From the NCBI GenBank assembly GCA_013697735.1, contig JACCWH010000055.1:1-64000 (forward strand): a DNA stretch of 64,000 nt, written 5' to 3'. The position numbers were made by a program, and so were the translations under genes. This document shows, in pieces, positions 9,257 to 15,943 of the stretch. Below the pieces are notes generated by a model that saw nothing but the letters and a program-made list of their open reading frames with translations, was not told where the DNA came from and searched no databases. Every line of letters begins with the position of its first letter. The stretch's first letter is position 1. The DNA is from Trueperaceae bacterium. GTDB taxonomy: Bacteria > Deinococcota > Deinococci > Deinococcales > Trueperaceae.

Positions 9257-9924
9257 TCCGCTACGCCGTCGCCCTCACGCTCGTCGTGCTGACGTCGCTG
9301 GCCGGGGCCCAGCCCCACGACGACGTCTGGGCCGTGCAGATCGTCGCGCTCCGGGACTTCGGCGAGGCGCAGCACGAGGCACGGGAGCTCGGCGAGATGG
9401 GGTTCGAGGCCTACACCGAGTTCGCCATGCACGAGGGCAACCAATGGGTGCGCGTCCGGGTCGGCTGCTGGGTCGGGCGCGACGCCGCCGAGGGGATCGC
9501 CGAGATCCTCCGCGCACTCGTCACGATCGAAGCCGCCGCCGTGCCCGCGACGCCGGACGCGCCGGTCGGCTGCATCGACGTCGACATCGGCTTCCTCAAG
9601 CCCGCGCACTTCCTGCCGATCCACCTGAGCGGTGAACTGCCGACGTTCCGCGTCGAGATCTCGAACCACGTGGCGCACGTTCGGCACGACGGAGAGGGCT
9701 GGCGCGTCCTCCAGGGGGAGGAACCGGCCCCCGCCCCCGCCCCCGAGGGATCGGCGAGTTTCCGTGCCGGTGAGCTCCGCGGCTACGCCGTCGCGCTCCT
9801 CCTCGAAGAGGGCCGCTCGCGTGTCTTCTGCCCCGGTCGGCTCGTGGCGCAGGTCGGCGGCGTCGCGCTCGTGGAGTGGGCGAACGCCATCGTCGCCTGC
9901 AAGGAGGCGATCGATGGCGATTGA
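9253..9924 (+). CDS. Secreted SPOR-domain-like protein
   Basis: Protein of 223 residues with a signal peptide (about 1-19, ending LAGAQP). Residues 25-90 (VWAVQIVALRDFGEAQHEARELGEMGFEAYTEF and following) have the pattern of a SPOR peptidoglycan-binding domain: a beta strand VQIVAL, a helix, GFEAY, then the strand WVRVRVGCW. The remaining 130 residues are not recognised and include a Pro/Ala stretch (PAPAPAPEG). GTG 9253 overlaps the hisH stop by 4 bp, and its own end overlaps yvcK by 11 bp. SPOR domains usually bind denuded glycan at septa, which would suit the yvcK neighbour; this is inference. Confidence 0.75.
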   Translation: MIRYAVALTLVVLTSLAGAQPHDDVWAVQIVALRDFGEAQHEARELGEMGFEAYTEFAMHEGNQWVRVRVGCWVGRDAAEGIAEILRALVTIEAAAVPATPDAPVGCIDVDIGFLKPAHFLPIHLSGELPTFRVEISNHVAHVRHDGEGWRVLQGEEPAPAPAPEGSASFRAGELRGYAVALLLEEGRSRVFCPGRLVAQVGGVALVEWANAIVACKEAIDGD

Positions 9925-11266
9925 CGTCGACACCCCCGGCCACGCTCAGACCATGTCGCGCGAGGCGCGGCGCCGGTACTTCGCGTCGCAGCGTTTCTGG
10001 CTCGCACCCGGAATGGGCGTCAAGCGACATGCCGCGGCCGCGATCGCGGGCGGCGTCTTGCTCATGATGGGGGTCGGGATCGGTGCGCTGTGGCTCATCG
10101 GCGAGGGTCGACAAGAAGTAGCGGCCCCCCTCGAACGCGTGCTCGCCTCCGGCACCTGGGCCGCCGGAGGGGGATGGCTCGCGCTCATCGCGACCTTCGG
10201 CGGCCTCACGCTCGCGGTTGGTGCGATCGGCCGCCTGAACCGCTCGCTCCTGTCGAACTGGCTCCCGCGGCCGCACGAGGCGGCAGCGCTCCTCCACGGT
10301 CGACTCCAGCTTGCGCGTGGACCGCGCATCGTGGCGCTCGGTGGTGGTGCGGGGCTGTCGACGCTGCTCCGCGGTCTCCGCGCCTACACCTCGAACCTCA
10401 CCGCGGTGGTCGCGGTGAGCGACGACGGCGGTTCCTCGGGGCGCCTCCGCGCCGCGTTCGGCATGCCCGCTCCAGGGGATCTCGCGGATTGCCTGGCAGC
10501 GCTCTCGGGCCACGAAGCCGCCCTGGGCCGCCTACTCCAGTACCGGTTCAGTCGTGGCGCGGAGCTCCAGGGGCACACCTTCGGCAACTTGCTCATCACC
10601 ACCCTCACCGAGGTGGAGGGCGACTTCGGCGACGCCTTGCGCGCCATCAACGCCATGCTCGACCTCTCGGGTGCGGTCTATCCGGTGACGGCCGTCCCGG
10701 TCGAGCTGGTGATGACGAAATTGGACGGCAGCACGGTGGTCGGTGAGAGTCGCGTTCGCGAGCGGTCGGGCGCCATCACGTCGGTGGCGATCCGGCCGGA
10801 AGCCCCCGCCGCCCTTCCGGAGGTCGTCGCCGCCATCGCCGATGCCGATCTCGTGGTGCTCGGACCGGGGAGCCTCTTCACGTCGACGTTGCCGCCGGTG
10901 CTGGTACCCGACGTCGCCCAAGCACTGCAACGCTCCCGGGCGCGCCTGGTCTACGTGTGCAACATCATGACCGAAGACGGCGAGACGAACGGCCTCGATG
11001 CCTGGGAGCACGTCGACGTGCTCGCTCGCGCGCTCGGTCGCAGACCCGACGTCTGCGTGGTGAACGACGACCCCGTCGACGACGCCCGTCTGTCCGCGTA
11101 TCGCGCGGAGCGCGCGGACGTCGTCGCGGTCGACGTCGAGCGCTTCGCCCGCGAGGGGGTGGCCCTGGAGCGGTGGTCGCTCCTCGGCGACGGTCCGGTC
11201 GCACAGCACGATCCGGAGCGACTCGCCCGCCACATCTACGAGCTCATCGCGAAGGGGACGCCATGA
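9914..11266 (+). CDS. yvcK: YvcK/CofD-family gluconeogenesis factor, membrane-anchored
   Basis: YvcK-family protein, 450 residues. In Gram-positive bacteria it binds UDP-sugars and is needed for cell shape and growth on gluconeogenic carbon. The nucleotide-binding motif ALGGGAGLSTLLRGLR (141-156) and DDGGSSGRLR are present, as is GPGSLFTSTLP. An N-terminal extension with two membrane segments (about 39-62 and 86-106) precedes the catalytic domain, so the protein should be anchored facing the cytoplasm. AAGGAGG (9901-9907) fits ATG 9914. The stop overlaps the next gene as ATGA. Confidence 0.93.
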   Translation: MAIDVDTPGHAQTMSREARRRYFASQRFWLAPGMGVKRHAAAAIAGGVLLMMGVGIGALWLIGEGRQEVAAPLERVLASGTWAAGGGWLALIATFGGLTLAVGAIGRLNRSLLSNWLPRPHEAAALLHGRLQLARGPRIVALGGGAGLSTLLRGLRAYTSNLTAVVAVSDDGGSSGRLRAAFGMPAPGDLADCLAALSGHEAALGRLLQYRFSRGAELQGHTFGNLLITTLTEVEGDFGDALRAINAMLDLSGAVYPVTAVPVELVMTKLDGSTVVGESRVRERSGAITSVAIRPEAPAALPEVVAAIADADLVVLGPGSLFTSTLPPVLVPDVAQALQRSRARLVYVCNIMTEDGETNGLDAWEHVDVLARALGRRPDVCVVNDDPVDDARLSAYRAERADVVAVDVERFAREGVALERWSLLGDGPVAQHDPERLARHIYELIAKGTP

Positions 11267-12437: not shown

Positions 12438-13727
12438 TCAGCCGCTGCGGATCGCGACCTCCACGAGGGAGCGGCGCTCGATGTCGGCACCGAGCGCCGC
12501 GAGTCGCGGCGCGAGGTGCTCGTACCCACGATCGACGTACTCCACACCGGTGACGGTGCTCGCGCCCTCAGCCGCGAGGGTGGCGACCACCAGCGCGCCG
12601 CCCGCGCGGATGTCGGCCGCGTGCACTTCCGCACCCCGGAGCGATCCACCACGCACCACCAGCGTGCGGTCGGTCAGCTCGACCTTGGCACCCATGCGCG
12701 CGAGCTCCGCCACGTGCGTGAAGCGATCGGGATAGACCCGGTCACGCACGACGCTGACGCCCGGTAGGGTCGCGAGGTAGGCACCGAAGGGCGCCTGCAG
12801 GTCCGTGGGAATGCCCGGATACTCGCGCGCCGTCACGTCGGCCGCCGCGAGTTCGCCGGTGGCGTCGATGGTGATGCTGGTCGGCCCGTCGAGCACCACG
12901 CGCACGCCCGTCTCCACGAGCTTGTCGAGGACGGCCTGGACGTGCACGCTCCTGACGCCGTTCACCTCGACGTGGCCGCGGGTGGCGGCGGTCGCGAGCA
13001 TGAAGGTGCCGGCCTCGATCCGATCGGGCATCGGGCGGAAGCGCACGCCTCGGAGTCGATCGACGCCCGCGATGCGGATCACGGGCGAGCCGGCCCCCTC
13101 GATGGTGGCGCCCATCGCACCGAGCATGGCGGCGAGGTCGGCGACCTCGGGCTCGAGCGCAGCGTTCTCGATCGTCACGGTGCCGGAGCCGAGCGCGGCG
13201 GCGAGGATCACGTTCTGCGTTCCACCGACCGTCGGCGCTTCGAACACGACCGTCCCCTCGAGGGGGCGACGCCTGACGGCCGAGAAGTCGCCGGCACGCT
13301 CGTCGACCTCGACGCCGAGCGCCTTGAAGGCTGCGATGTGCCGGTCGACGGGACGGGGGCCGAACGCGCAGCCGCCGGGCATCGAGATGCGCGCTTCGCC
13401 GCACCGCGCGAGGAGCGCCCCCATCGCCACGAAGGAGGCACGCATCTTGCTGACGAGGCTGTAGGGGGCGCTGCAGCGTTCGATCGTCTGCGCGTGGAGG
13501 TGGAGGTCGCGCCCCTCCCAGTGCACGCGCACGCCGATGTGCTCGAGAATCTCGAGACTCACCAATACGTCGGCGAGCCGCGGGACGCCCTCGAGGACTA
13601 CGTTCTCGTCCGTGAGGAGGCTCGCGAGGATGAGGTAGAGCGCGGAGTTCTTCGCCGCGTTGACGGTGAGCTCGCCCCGCAGGGGCGTACCGCCTCGGAC
13701 CTCGAACACCGGCTTCGCTCGCTGCAT
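12438..13727 (-). CDS. murA: UDP-N-acetylglucosamine 1-carboxyvinyltransferase
   Basis: First committed enzyme of peptidoglycan synthesis: it transfers enolpyruvate from PEP to UDP-GlcNAc. It has 429 residues. The invariant lysine is in NAAKNSALYL (K26), and the PEP-binding cysteine is C120 in MPGGCAFGPR, so the fosfomycin target cysteine is present. DRIEAGTFM and TDLQAPF are further signatures. ATG 13727 has GGAGGGTG just upstream. An ATG/CTG start farther out would run into the operator. The gene is divergent from the RHH gene and has a consensus promoter with operator-like dyads. Confidence 0.97.
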   Translation of the reverse strand: MQRAKPVFEVRGGTPLRGELTVNAAKNSALYLILASLLTDENVVLEGVPRLADVLVSLEILEHIGVRVHWEGRDLHLHAQTIERCSAPYSLVSKMRASFVAMGALLARCGEARISMPGGCAFGPRPVDRHIAAFKALGVEVDERAGDFSAVRRRPLEGTVVFEAPTVGGTQNVILAAALGSGTVTIENAALEPEVADLAAMLGAMGATIEGAGSPVIRIAGVDRLRGVRFRPMPDRIEAGTFMLATAATRGHVEVNGVRSVHVQAVLDKLVETGVRVVLDGPTSITIDATGELAAADVTAREYPGIPTDLQAPFGAYLATLPGVSVVRDRVYPDRFTHVAELARMGAKVELTDRTLVVRGGSLRGAEVHAADIRAGGALVVATLAAEGASTVTGVEYVDRGYEHLAPRLAALGADIERRSLVEVAIRSG

Positions 13728-13758
13728 CGCTGCACCCTCCACCCCACCACGTGCCTGA

Positions 13759-13784
13759 TACACATGATGTGTACACGCAGTGTA
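13759..13784. promoter_or_regulatory. Two overlapping inverted repeats at the murA promoter (putative operator)
   Basis: TACACATGATGTGTA (13759-13773) is a perfect dyad. TACACGCAGTGTA (13772-13784) is a second one that contains the murA -10 box. They share two bases, and their centres are 12 bp apart, about one helical turn. Both are built from TACAC/GTGTA half-sites. Binding here would block murA transcription start. The adjacent RHH protein is the obvious candidate binder, by inference. Confidence 0.7.
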
Positions 13785-13807
13785 TGGAGCTTACGACGGC
13801 ATGTCAA
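13779..13807 (-). promoter_or_regulatory. Consensus sigma-70-type promoter of murA
   Basis: On the minus strand TTGACA (13807-13802), 17-bp spacer, TACACT (13784-13779). Start of transcription is expected near 13772, about 45 nt before the murA ATG. Confidence 0.85.
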
Positions 13808-13835
13808 CATGAGGCGCAGACGAGGCGGATGCACA

Positions 13836-13844
13836 TGCTACGAT
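13836..13844 (+). promoter_or_regulatory. Extended -10 promoter (TGC TACGAT) of the RHH gene
   Basis: TGC followed by TACGAT, an extended -10. Transcription would start near 13851, leaving about 24 nt before GTG 13875 with GGAGG at 13866-13870. No good -35. Confidence 0.5.
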
Positions 13845-13874
13845 GTCGGCATCAGACCGTCGGACGGAGGCGCA

Positions 13875-14085
13875 GGTGCCCAAGCGTGACAAGAGCAAGC
13901 GGTTGCAGGTCGTCATCTCCGAAGCCCAGGACTCACTGCTCACGAAGACGGCCTATCAGCTGTCGAACCCGGAGCGCCTGGTCTCGAAATCCGAAGTCGT
14001 CCGCCTCGGCATCGAGATGCTGAACAAGGCGGTCGAGGCGGGCCACCTCGACCCGGAGCTGCTGAAGACGCTCGAAGACGCCTAG
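13875..14085 (+). CDS. Ribbon-helix-helix (CopG/Arc-like) DNA-binding protein
   Basis: Small protein of 69 residues. The strand KRLQVVIS is followed by two helices, EAQDSLLTKTAYQL and SKSEVVRLGIEMLNKAV, the ribbon-helix-helix fold; the strand would insert into the major groove. GTG 13875 is chosen because GGAGG lies 4 nt upstream and the promoter box covers the alternative ATG 13843, which would add 11 residues. It is divergent from murA and only 4 bp upstream of the kinase gene, so it probably forms an operon with it. Autoregulation and murA control through the TACAC/GTGTA dyads are inferred. Confidence 0.8.
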
Positions 14086-14089
14086 TCGC

Positions 14090-15943
14090 GTGTTCGCGCC
14101 GGGCGAGGTCATCGACGACCGCTACGACGTGCTGGGCCTGCTGGGACAGGGGGGCATGGCGCACGTCTTCCGCGCCGCGGATCGGCACCTCGAACGAACC
14201 GTCGCCCTCAAGGTCCTCCGGCCGCACCTCACCGAGACCGACGCAGAACGCTTCCGGCGCGAGATCCGCGCACTCGCTCGCTTCAACCACCCCGGCATCG
14301 TGGCGATCTACGACCTCGGCCAGAGCGAACACGTCTACTTCGCGATGGAGCTCGTGGAGGGAGGGCCGATCACCGACCTCGGCCCCGTCGACGCCGATCC
14401 CGAGACGATCACCACGTGCCTCGGGGCGGCGATCACCGTGGCCGAAGCGCTCGGCTACGTGCACCGCCTCGGCATGGTCCATCGCGACCTCACACCGCGC
14501 AACATCCTGCTCACGCGTGACGATCACCCCAAGGTGATGGACTTCGGTCTCGTGCAACTCACCGAGACCTCGCGTGAACTCACCCGAACGGGATTCACGC
14601 TCGGCACACCGCAGTACATGGCGCCCGAGCAGGCGACGGGCGCCAGCAGCGGCTCCGCCGTCGACCTCTACGCCTTCGGCGCGGTGCTCTACAAGACGCT
14701 CACCGGCCACGCACCCTTCGACGCCGACAACGACCAGGCGGTGCTCTACCAGCACGTCTACGGCAACGCCGAGCCGGCGTCGACGCTCAATCCCGCCATC
14801 CCGGCGTCACTCTCGCACCTCGTCGGGTCGCTCCTCGCGAAGCGTCCCGAGGACCGACCGCCGTCCGCGCTCGCCGTCGCCGACGCCCTGCGCGCCATTC
14901 GGCGCGCCTGGCTCGCCGAGGCGTCGCAGGTGCCCGGCGCCGGTCCCGGCCGCCGCCACACCTATCCGGGGGGTCCGGTCGCATCGCGGCCGCTGACGCT
15001 CCGCTGGCAAGTACGCCTCGACGAGGGGCCGCAGTGGCCCGCTGGATCGTGTGCCGCACACGGCTTCGTGCTCGTCGGGCAACGCTCCGACGCACTCGCC
15101 GTACTGCGCCCGGCAGACGGCGGCCTCCACGCCACGTTCTCGCTTCGCGACGAGGTCTACGCCCCGCCGATCTACGTCGGAGGTCAGGTCATCGTGACCA
15201 CGCGCGACGGCGCGGTGCAGGCCCTGGCGTGGCCGACGGGGCGGCCGGAGTGGTCCGTCGAAGGCGTCGATGCGGCCGGTATGACCGCCCTCGGTGACGA
15301 TCTCGTGGTCGCACGCCGAGACGGACGCCTCGAGCGGTGGGACGCGAGCGCCTCCGCGCGGTGGCGCTTCGATGCCGGCGCGCCCCTCGCCACACCGCCG
15401 TGCCTCCATCGCGGGCTCGCGTTCGTGTTCGACGTCGAAGGGTGGCTCCACGCCGTGACCCTCGATCACGGCGCGCGTCGCTTCAAGGTACAGGTCGGAC
15501 ACGCCGTCGCGGGCCCCGTCGCCGCAGGCGGCGTCTTGTTGCTCCCGGCCCGCAACGGAGAACTCCACGCCTTCGACATCGCGAAGCACGAGGTGATGTG
15601 GACCTACGATCTGGAGGGGGAGCTCTGGGCCTCCCCCGCCGTCGCCGGACCCTTCGTCTACGCGGCGTCGTGGGGCACGAAGCTCCACGCCCTGTCGCTC
15701 CGCACGGGCGACGACGTCTGGAGCGTCGACATGCCGGGACCAGTGACGGCGTCGCCCGTCGTGGCCTCCGGCGCCGTTTACGTCGCTACGGAGACGGGTG
15801 AGCTCCTCGTCTTCGATGCTCGCTCGGGTCGGGCGCTCGGACGACACCTCGTCAGCCACGCCGCCATCCAGGCGAGCCCACTCCCCATCGGCGACGCCGT
15901 GCTCGTGACCGCCGTCGACGGGCAGGTCCACCTCTTCGGCTAA
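14090..15943 (+). CDS. Soluble Ser/Thr protein kinase with C-terminal PQQ-like beta-propeller
   Basis: Protein of 617 residues. The N-terminal Hanks-type kinase (about 8-275) has the glycine loop GLLGQGGMAHVF (16-27), catalytic lysine K41 (VALKV), E58, HRD 131-133, N138, DFG 151-153 and APE 178-180. The catalytic loop reads HRDLTPRN, with Thr where eukaryotic-like kinases usually have Lys; this also occurs in other bacterial kinases. Residues about 300-617 are repeated WD/PQQ-type blades (WTYDLEGELWASPAV, VWSVDMPGPVTASPVV, VLVTAVDGQVHLF). No membrane helix joins the two domains, unlike PASTA kinases. GTG 14090 lies 4 bp after the RHH gene. Target and ligand are unknown. Confidence 0.88.
   Translation: MFAPGEVIDDRYDVLGLLGQGGMAHVFRAADRHLERTVALKVLRPHLTETDAERFRREIRALARFNHPGIVAIYDLGQSEHVYFAMELVEGGPITDLGPVDADPETITTCLGAAITVAEALGYVHRLGMVHRDLTPRNILLTRDDHPKVMDFGLVQLTETSRELTRTGFTLGTPQYMAPEQATGASSGSAVDLYAFGAVLYKTLTGHAPFDADNDQAVLYQHVYGNAEPASTLNPAIPASLSHLVGSLLAKRPEDRPPSALAVADALRAIRRAWLAEASQVPGAGPGRRHTYPGGPVASRPLTLRWQVRLDEGPQWPAGSCAAHGFVLVGQRSDALAVLRPADGGLHATFSLRDEVYAPPIYVGGQVIVTTRDGAVQALAWPTGRPEWSVEGVDAAGMTALGDDLVVARRDGRLERWDASASARWRFDAGAPLATPPCLHRGLAFVFDVEGWLHAVTLDHGARRFKVQVGHAVAGPVAAGGVLLLPARNGELHAFDIAKHEVMWTYDLEGELWASPAVAGPFVYAASWGTKLHALSLRTGDDVWSVDMPGPVTASPVVASGAVYVATETGELLVFDARSGRALGRHLVSHAAIQASPLPIGDAVLVTAVDGQVHLFG

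Follow-up and report, generated by a model that had tools for sequence, protein, structure and literature searches.

A direct-repeat operator shared by murA, murF and ddl, and a neighbouring small RHH-type protein as its probable user

How is the first step of peptidoglycan synthesis set at a locus where murA stands back to back with the gene of a small DNA-binding protein? The question was raised by a 64-kb stretch of DNA (the window), which is part of a contig in the 3.5-Mb draft genome of a Trueperaceae bacterium (phylum Deinococcota). The murA gene (UDP-N-acetylglucosamine 1-carboxyvinyltransferase; 12438-13727, minus strand) starts with an ATG at 13727, has a GAGGG ribosome site 5' of this ATG, and encodes a product that matched TIGR01072 at 475 bits, above the cut-off. 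Divergent from it on the plus strand lies the gene for a small RHH-type DNA-binding protein of 69 amino acids (13876-14085), with a ribosome site GGAGG at 13866-13870 and a GTG start at 13876 that is conserved in relatives. The promoter of this gene has a probable extended -10, TGCTACGAT (13836-13844, plus strand), recognised from its sequence, and the pattern TGCTAnnnT is conserved in relatives. The gene of a soluble Ser/Thr kinase with C-terminal PQQ/BamB-like repeats (14090-15943, plus strand; Pfam Pkinase 3.2e-45, PQQ_2 3.1e-29) begins 4 bp past the RHH stop codon. MurA opens the peptidoglycan precursor pathway and is the target of the antibiotic fosfomycin, while Ddl makes and MurF adds D-Ala-D-Ala. 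The transcriptional setting of these precursor genes in bacteria is poorly known.

A sequence-only reading of the window had placed two overlapping inverted repeats, with centres 12 bp apart, over the -10 and start point of murA, about 90 bp from the divergent RHH gene. Both repeats are present. Dyad 1, TACACATGATGTGTA at 13759-13773, is a perfect 7-1-7 palindrome with its centre at 13766, and dyad 2, TACACGCAGTGTA at 13772-13784, is a 5-3-5 repeat with its centre at 13778; the GTG of the RHH gene lies 92 nt from the dyads. The murA promoter on the minus strand is near-consensus, consisting of a -35 box TTGACA (13807-13802; TTGACAA is kept in most relatives), a 17-nt spacer and a -10 box TACACT (13784-13779). 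With the predicted start point at about 13772, dyad 2 therefore spans the -10 and dyad 1 spans about +1 to +14, which agrees with the placement proposed. The pattern TACAC-N0-7-GTGTA was seen twice in the 64 kb, as these two dyads, compared to 0.02 expected when the window is modelled as a first-order Markov chain. Generic 7-1-7 palindromes were not rare (17 seen, 13 expected), as would suit chance dyads over an ordinary promoter, so the significance of dyad 1 rests on its sequence, position and conservation rather than on symmetry alone. Conservation, fixed position and recurrence before murF and ddl, all described below, refute the chance explanation, to which we give a negligible probability.

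A set of 65 non-redundant murA/RHH spacers was searched de novo by EM with the window's genus left out. The top motif, TTACACAtCATgCTCAa, carried 19.3 bits and scored 507 compared to 317 for the -35 motif in the same spacers. Using the matrix trained without this genus, the best site in the 64 kb was 13758-13774 (plus strand; 17.2 bits), which includes dyad 1, and the next unrelated site reached 9.2 bits. A clear site (11 bits or more) was detected in 61 of the 65 spacers. Its centre falls exactly at +7 relative to the predicted start point of murA in 50 of these, and its orientation is identical in 58/61 and opposite in 3/61. Where murA adjoins the RHH gene, dyad 1 is thus conserved, and it alone: dyad 2 is made up of the -10 hexamer, which forms its right arm, plus the end of dyad 1, and this hexamer varies among relatives (TACACT, TATGCT, TATCCT, TAGACT) while the heptads of the operator stay. 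The description of the dyads as twins was accordingly dropped and dyad 2 was rejected as an element.

The conserved form also differs from the pair of inverted repeats first envisaged. The operator is built of two WTRCWCA heptads in direct orientation with a 9-bp period, represented in the window by ATACACA (13758-13764) and ATGTGTA (13767-13773), and the halves of the matrix had a similarity of 0.87 as direct repeats compared to 0.76 as inverted repeats, for which the inverted-repeat model was discarded. The perfect palindrome is peculiar to the window's genus and results from the looseness of the second heptad, which ATGTGTA also matches. The location of the element within the initially transcribed region would be compatible with an activator site or a 5' RNA element of murA. 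We regard this as very improbable. A near-consensus promoter can do without an activator, and positions +1 to +14 are seldom used by activators; what has been conserved is two heptads in direct repeat and not a stem, and the opposite orientation at some loci (the three murA spacers and several ddl and murF sites) is unsuited to an RNA element. With the operator covering the start point of a promoter close to consensus, a repressor site is the simplest reading. In one genome (G026, spacer of L026) the murA operator and the RHH gene are separated by transposon-like DNA of about 2.3 kb.

The small RHH gene was found in 106 of 111 genomes of the phylum, covering all 31 genera, and was nearly always divergent from murA; among the first 40 relatives, 38 showed this divergent pair. 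The genus Deinococcus was not among the genomes with a match. Four of the five genomes lacking the gene had no murA match in the assembly and the fifth had only part of murA, at the end of a contig; these five absences may be assembly gaps. With the RHH gene near-universal and the exceptions having no murA or only part of it, motif loss with gene loss gives no information. A search for plasmid-borne homologs yielded none. The sole close solved relative of the protein is TTHA0139 of Thermus thermophilus HB8 (PDB 5YTP, 5YTQ; L34A variant; E=7.6e-33), an ortholog by both sequence and fold, as the predicted monomer matches 5YTP/5YTQ. For TTHA0139 the literature found consists of structures alone and describes no function, target or operator, and a literature search covering TTHA0139, TTHA0138 and murA repressors of this kind returned no report. 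The protein had no Pfam match and no NCBIfam match of note, and other fold matches were weak (the best beyond TTHA0139 was the ParD2 antitoxin, E=1.4, probability 0.63). The RHH assignment rests instead on topology, tandem sub-sites and an invariant segment: the predicted monomer shows a strand-helix-helix order over about 45 residues (extended 9-14, helices 16-29 and 38-55; core pLDDT 92-97), the predicted operator has two sub-sites 9 bp apart, as expected of an RHH repressor, and the strand-forming KRLQVVI segment is, like the operator, nearly invariant.

Two known classes of RHH protein were considered and rejected. An antitoxin of a type II toxin-antitoxin pair does not agree with a downstream gene that is a Ser/Thr kinase (43/65 loci) or with a nearly universal, single-copy chromosomal locus. 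The Omega repressor of pSM19035 is an RHH protein that acts on short non-palindromic heptads, 5'-WATCACW-3', over promoters in either orientation (PMC9499535). The operator described here is alike in having heptads over promoters in mixed orientation, whereas Omega (ParB) uses contiguous 7-bp heptads in arrays of 7-10 and serves plasmid partition, compared to a 9-bp period, two or three copies and chromosomal cell-wall genes here. The neighbours of the RHH gene are murA and the kinase, with no ParA, and no sequence match between Omega and the RHH protein was reported.

The operator is not confined to murA. In the window's own genome the TACACATGATGTGTA pattern was perfect at murA alone, and two-mismatch sites were present just upstream of murF (C75:1932) and 35 nt upstream of ddl (C223:6067), the families of both genes being confirmed by TIGR01143 and TIGR01205, respectively; neither a further two-mismatch site (C88:2446) nor any three-mismatch site of this genome showed a link to the cell wall. 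We then scored positions -160 to +30 relative to the start codon across genomes with a matrix built from murA spacers alone, with the window held out, at a threshold of 14 bits; starts of ddl and murF were taken from tblastn alignments and may be off by some codons. Sites of at least 14 bits were detected at ddl in 14 of 30 genomes and at murF in 18 of 29, compared to 1/1048 control windows elsewhere in the same loci (Fisher 7e-23 for ddl and 1e-30 for murF, values that overstate independence as the genomes are related). Because these control windows were mostly coding, recA upstream regions were added as a control, and 0 of 27 had a site. Although the genomes are related, the sites vary in sequence from genus to genus and belong to unrelated genes. 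At ddl and murF they are weak or absent in some genera, and several have the opposite orientation. The murF sites are often perfect direct repeats, e.g., TTACACATCTTACACATC. An exact TTACACATNNTACACA occurred 15 times in the 111 genomes, with at least eight of the matches preceding murF or murA, and allowing one mismatch brought in further copies of murF and ddl, among them the ddl of G099, an assembly without murA and the RHH gene. The same operator at murF and ddl indicates a regulon and not a murA-only switch. The earlier proposal that murA, as the first peptidoglycan step, is the target thus holds for the conserved murA site, and it had missed the other two genes. Matches inside the coding sequences of cytochrome b (L233), an alaS-like gene (L254) and a dihydroorotase-like gene (L269/L274) looked like chance and were set aside.

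Two Trueperaceae genomes, G003 and G004, the two exceptions among the first 40 relatives, have lost the murA beside the RHH gene (L144, L145, L146, L147) and carry a murA elsewhere, adjoining a thymidine-kinase-like gene. This murA has 45-47% identity to that of the window and is apparently a replacement. The DNA upstream of the relocated genes has the operator (TTACACATATTACACAA, 20.6 bits; TTACGCAAATTACACAA, 14.4 bits), so the operator goes with murA as a function and is not a mere neighbour of the RHH gene. The spacer beside the RHH gene in G004 retains a 19.8-bit site although murA is gone, which leaves room for autoregulation, and in the window a weak half-site-like sequence, GATGCACATG, overlaps the 5' side of the RHH extended -10 as a weak repeat of 13749-13766. 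It follows from neither that the RHH protein mainly controls its own gene and the kinase, with the effect on murA a by-product of the shared spacer. The position of the site is fixed relative to the murA promoter (+7) while the RHH side varies, it recurs far from the RHH gene at murF, ddl and the relocated murA, and the RHH spacer of G003 is down to 12.8 bits at a different position. A mainly autoregulatory role is therefore quite unlikely, and autoregulation in addition to control of murA is weakly supported. A YvcK/CofD-like ORF lies upstream of murA in the window (9632-11266) and a similar ORF is found near the RHH gene in G003 and G004, so the neighbourhood is conserved; the RHH-kinase pair has also stayed together in both genomes.

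The operator is thus a conserved, position-locked element before murA, murF and ddl, and the remaining question is which protein uses it. Adjacency of the RHH gene to murA is by itself no proof of binding, and TGTGNA/TNCACA half-sites resemble CRP-type sites, which would allow another conserved factor (e.g., of the CRP/FNR type) to act at all three genes with the RHH protein a bystander or active elsewhere. The Thermus CRP-type consensus (TTHA1359) is AWTGTRA-N6-TYACAWT (PMC8465061). In such sites the half-sites point outward with a fixed gap of 6 bp between them, unlike the direct heptads with a 9-bp period seen here, RHH repressors typically use short tandem sub-sites, and the RHH gene is tied to murA across families while no other regulator gene was seen to be so. 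A different binder is for these reasons unlikely, albeit the least unlikely of the alternatives. The divergent adjacency and the conservation make the RHH protein the probable binder. Direct repression of murA by this protein, as first suggested, is accordingly well founded as regards the operator on the murA start point and the phylum-wide divergent neighbour, and its binding step is deduced from this genomic context.

Dyad 1 is most likely one copy of a phylum-wide DNA switch before murA, murF and ddl, used by the neighbouring small protein in turning down cell-wall synthesis, and it is probable that the RHH protein represses precursor synthesis at the three genes through the shared operator, both the binder and the sign of the effect being drawn from context. 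RHH dimers would bind the WTRCWCA heptads 9 bp apart cooperatively and would sit across the start points of murA, murF and ddl, blocking RNA polymerase. The protein would in this way set precursor flow at MurA, the first committed step, and at the synthesis and addition of D-Ala-D-Ala by Ddl and MurF. MraZ is a conserved DNA-binding protein that represses the cluster of division and cell-wall genes, uses short direct-repeat sites and targets its own mraZ-mraW/dcw operon. The RHH protein is similar in having direct-repeat sites before cell-wall genes and differs from MraZ, which has an unrelated fold, in targeting murA, ddl and murF. If the reading holds, an uncharacterised protein that a deep-branching phylum with unusual envelopes has conserved gains a function. 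The question also becomes open to experiment in a tractable laboratory organism, given a single small repressor whose Thermus ortholog has been crystallised, together with a defined operator and three defined targets.

Relief of repression would probably require a signal, possibly phosphorylation by the downstream Ser/Thr kinase. The kinase has intact catalytic motifs (VALK, HRD, DFG and APE) with no clear membrane segment seen, and may supply the signal to the RHH regulator. Linkage to the RHH gene was seen at 43 of the 65 loci that could be tested; at the other 22, including all Meiothermus and Calidithermus loci tested, the kinase was not found, so it is a plausible but dispensable input. 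In mycobacteria the MurA step is governed post-translationally by a Ser/Thr kinase through PknB-CwlM-MurA; the likeness is a Ser/Thr kinase at the MurA step, the difference being that here the kinase gene is linked to that of a transcription factor and the role of the kinase is putative. We suggest only tentatively that the soluble PQQ-repeat kinase phosphorylates the RHH protein and thereby releases murA, murF and ddl together, along with envelope genes such as that of a TIGR03788 protein in some lineages. Were such a kinase-RHH circuit true, precursor supply would be set transcriptionally at the first step and the D-Ala-D-Ala branch, phylum-wide.

The operator was also observed before other genes in some lineages. 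It precedes a TIGR03788-family gene (sortase-target, VIT-domain) in four genomes of two families (G030, G038, G042, G009; L224, L246, L229, L265) and an MNIO/DUF692-like gene in four genomes of several families (G029, G036, G040, G061; L315, L317, L320, L270). An exact TTACACATNNTACACA stands before function-unassigned genes in G011, G022 and G020 (L251, L253, L236), which are possible lineage-specific targets.
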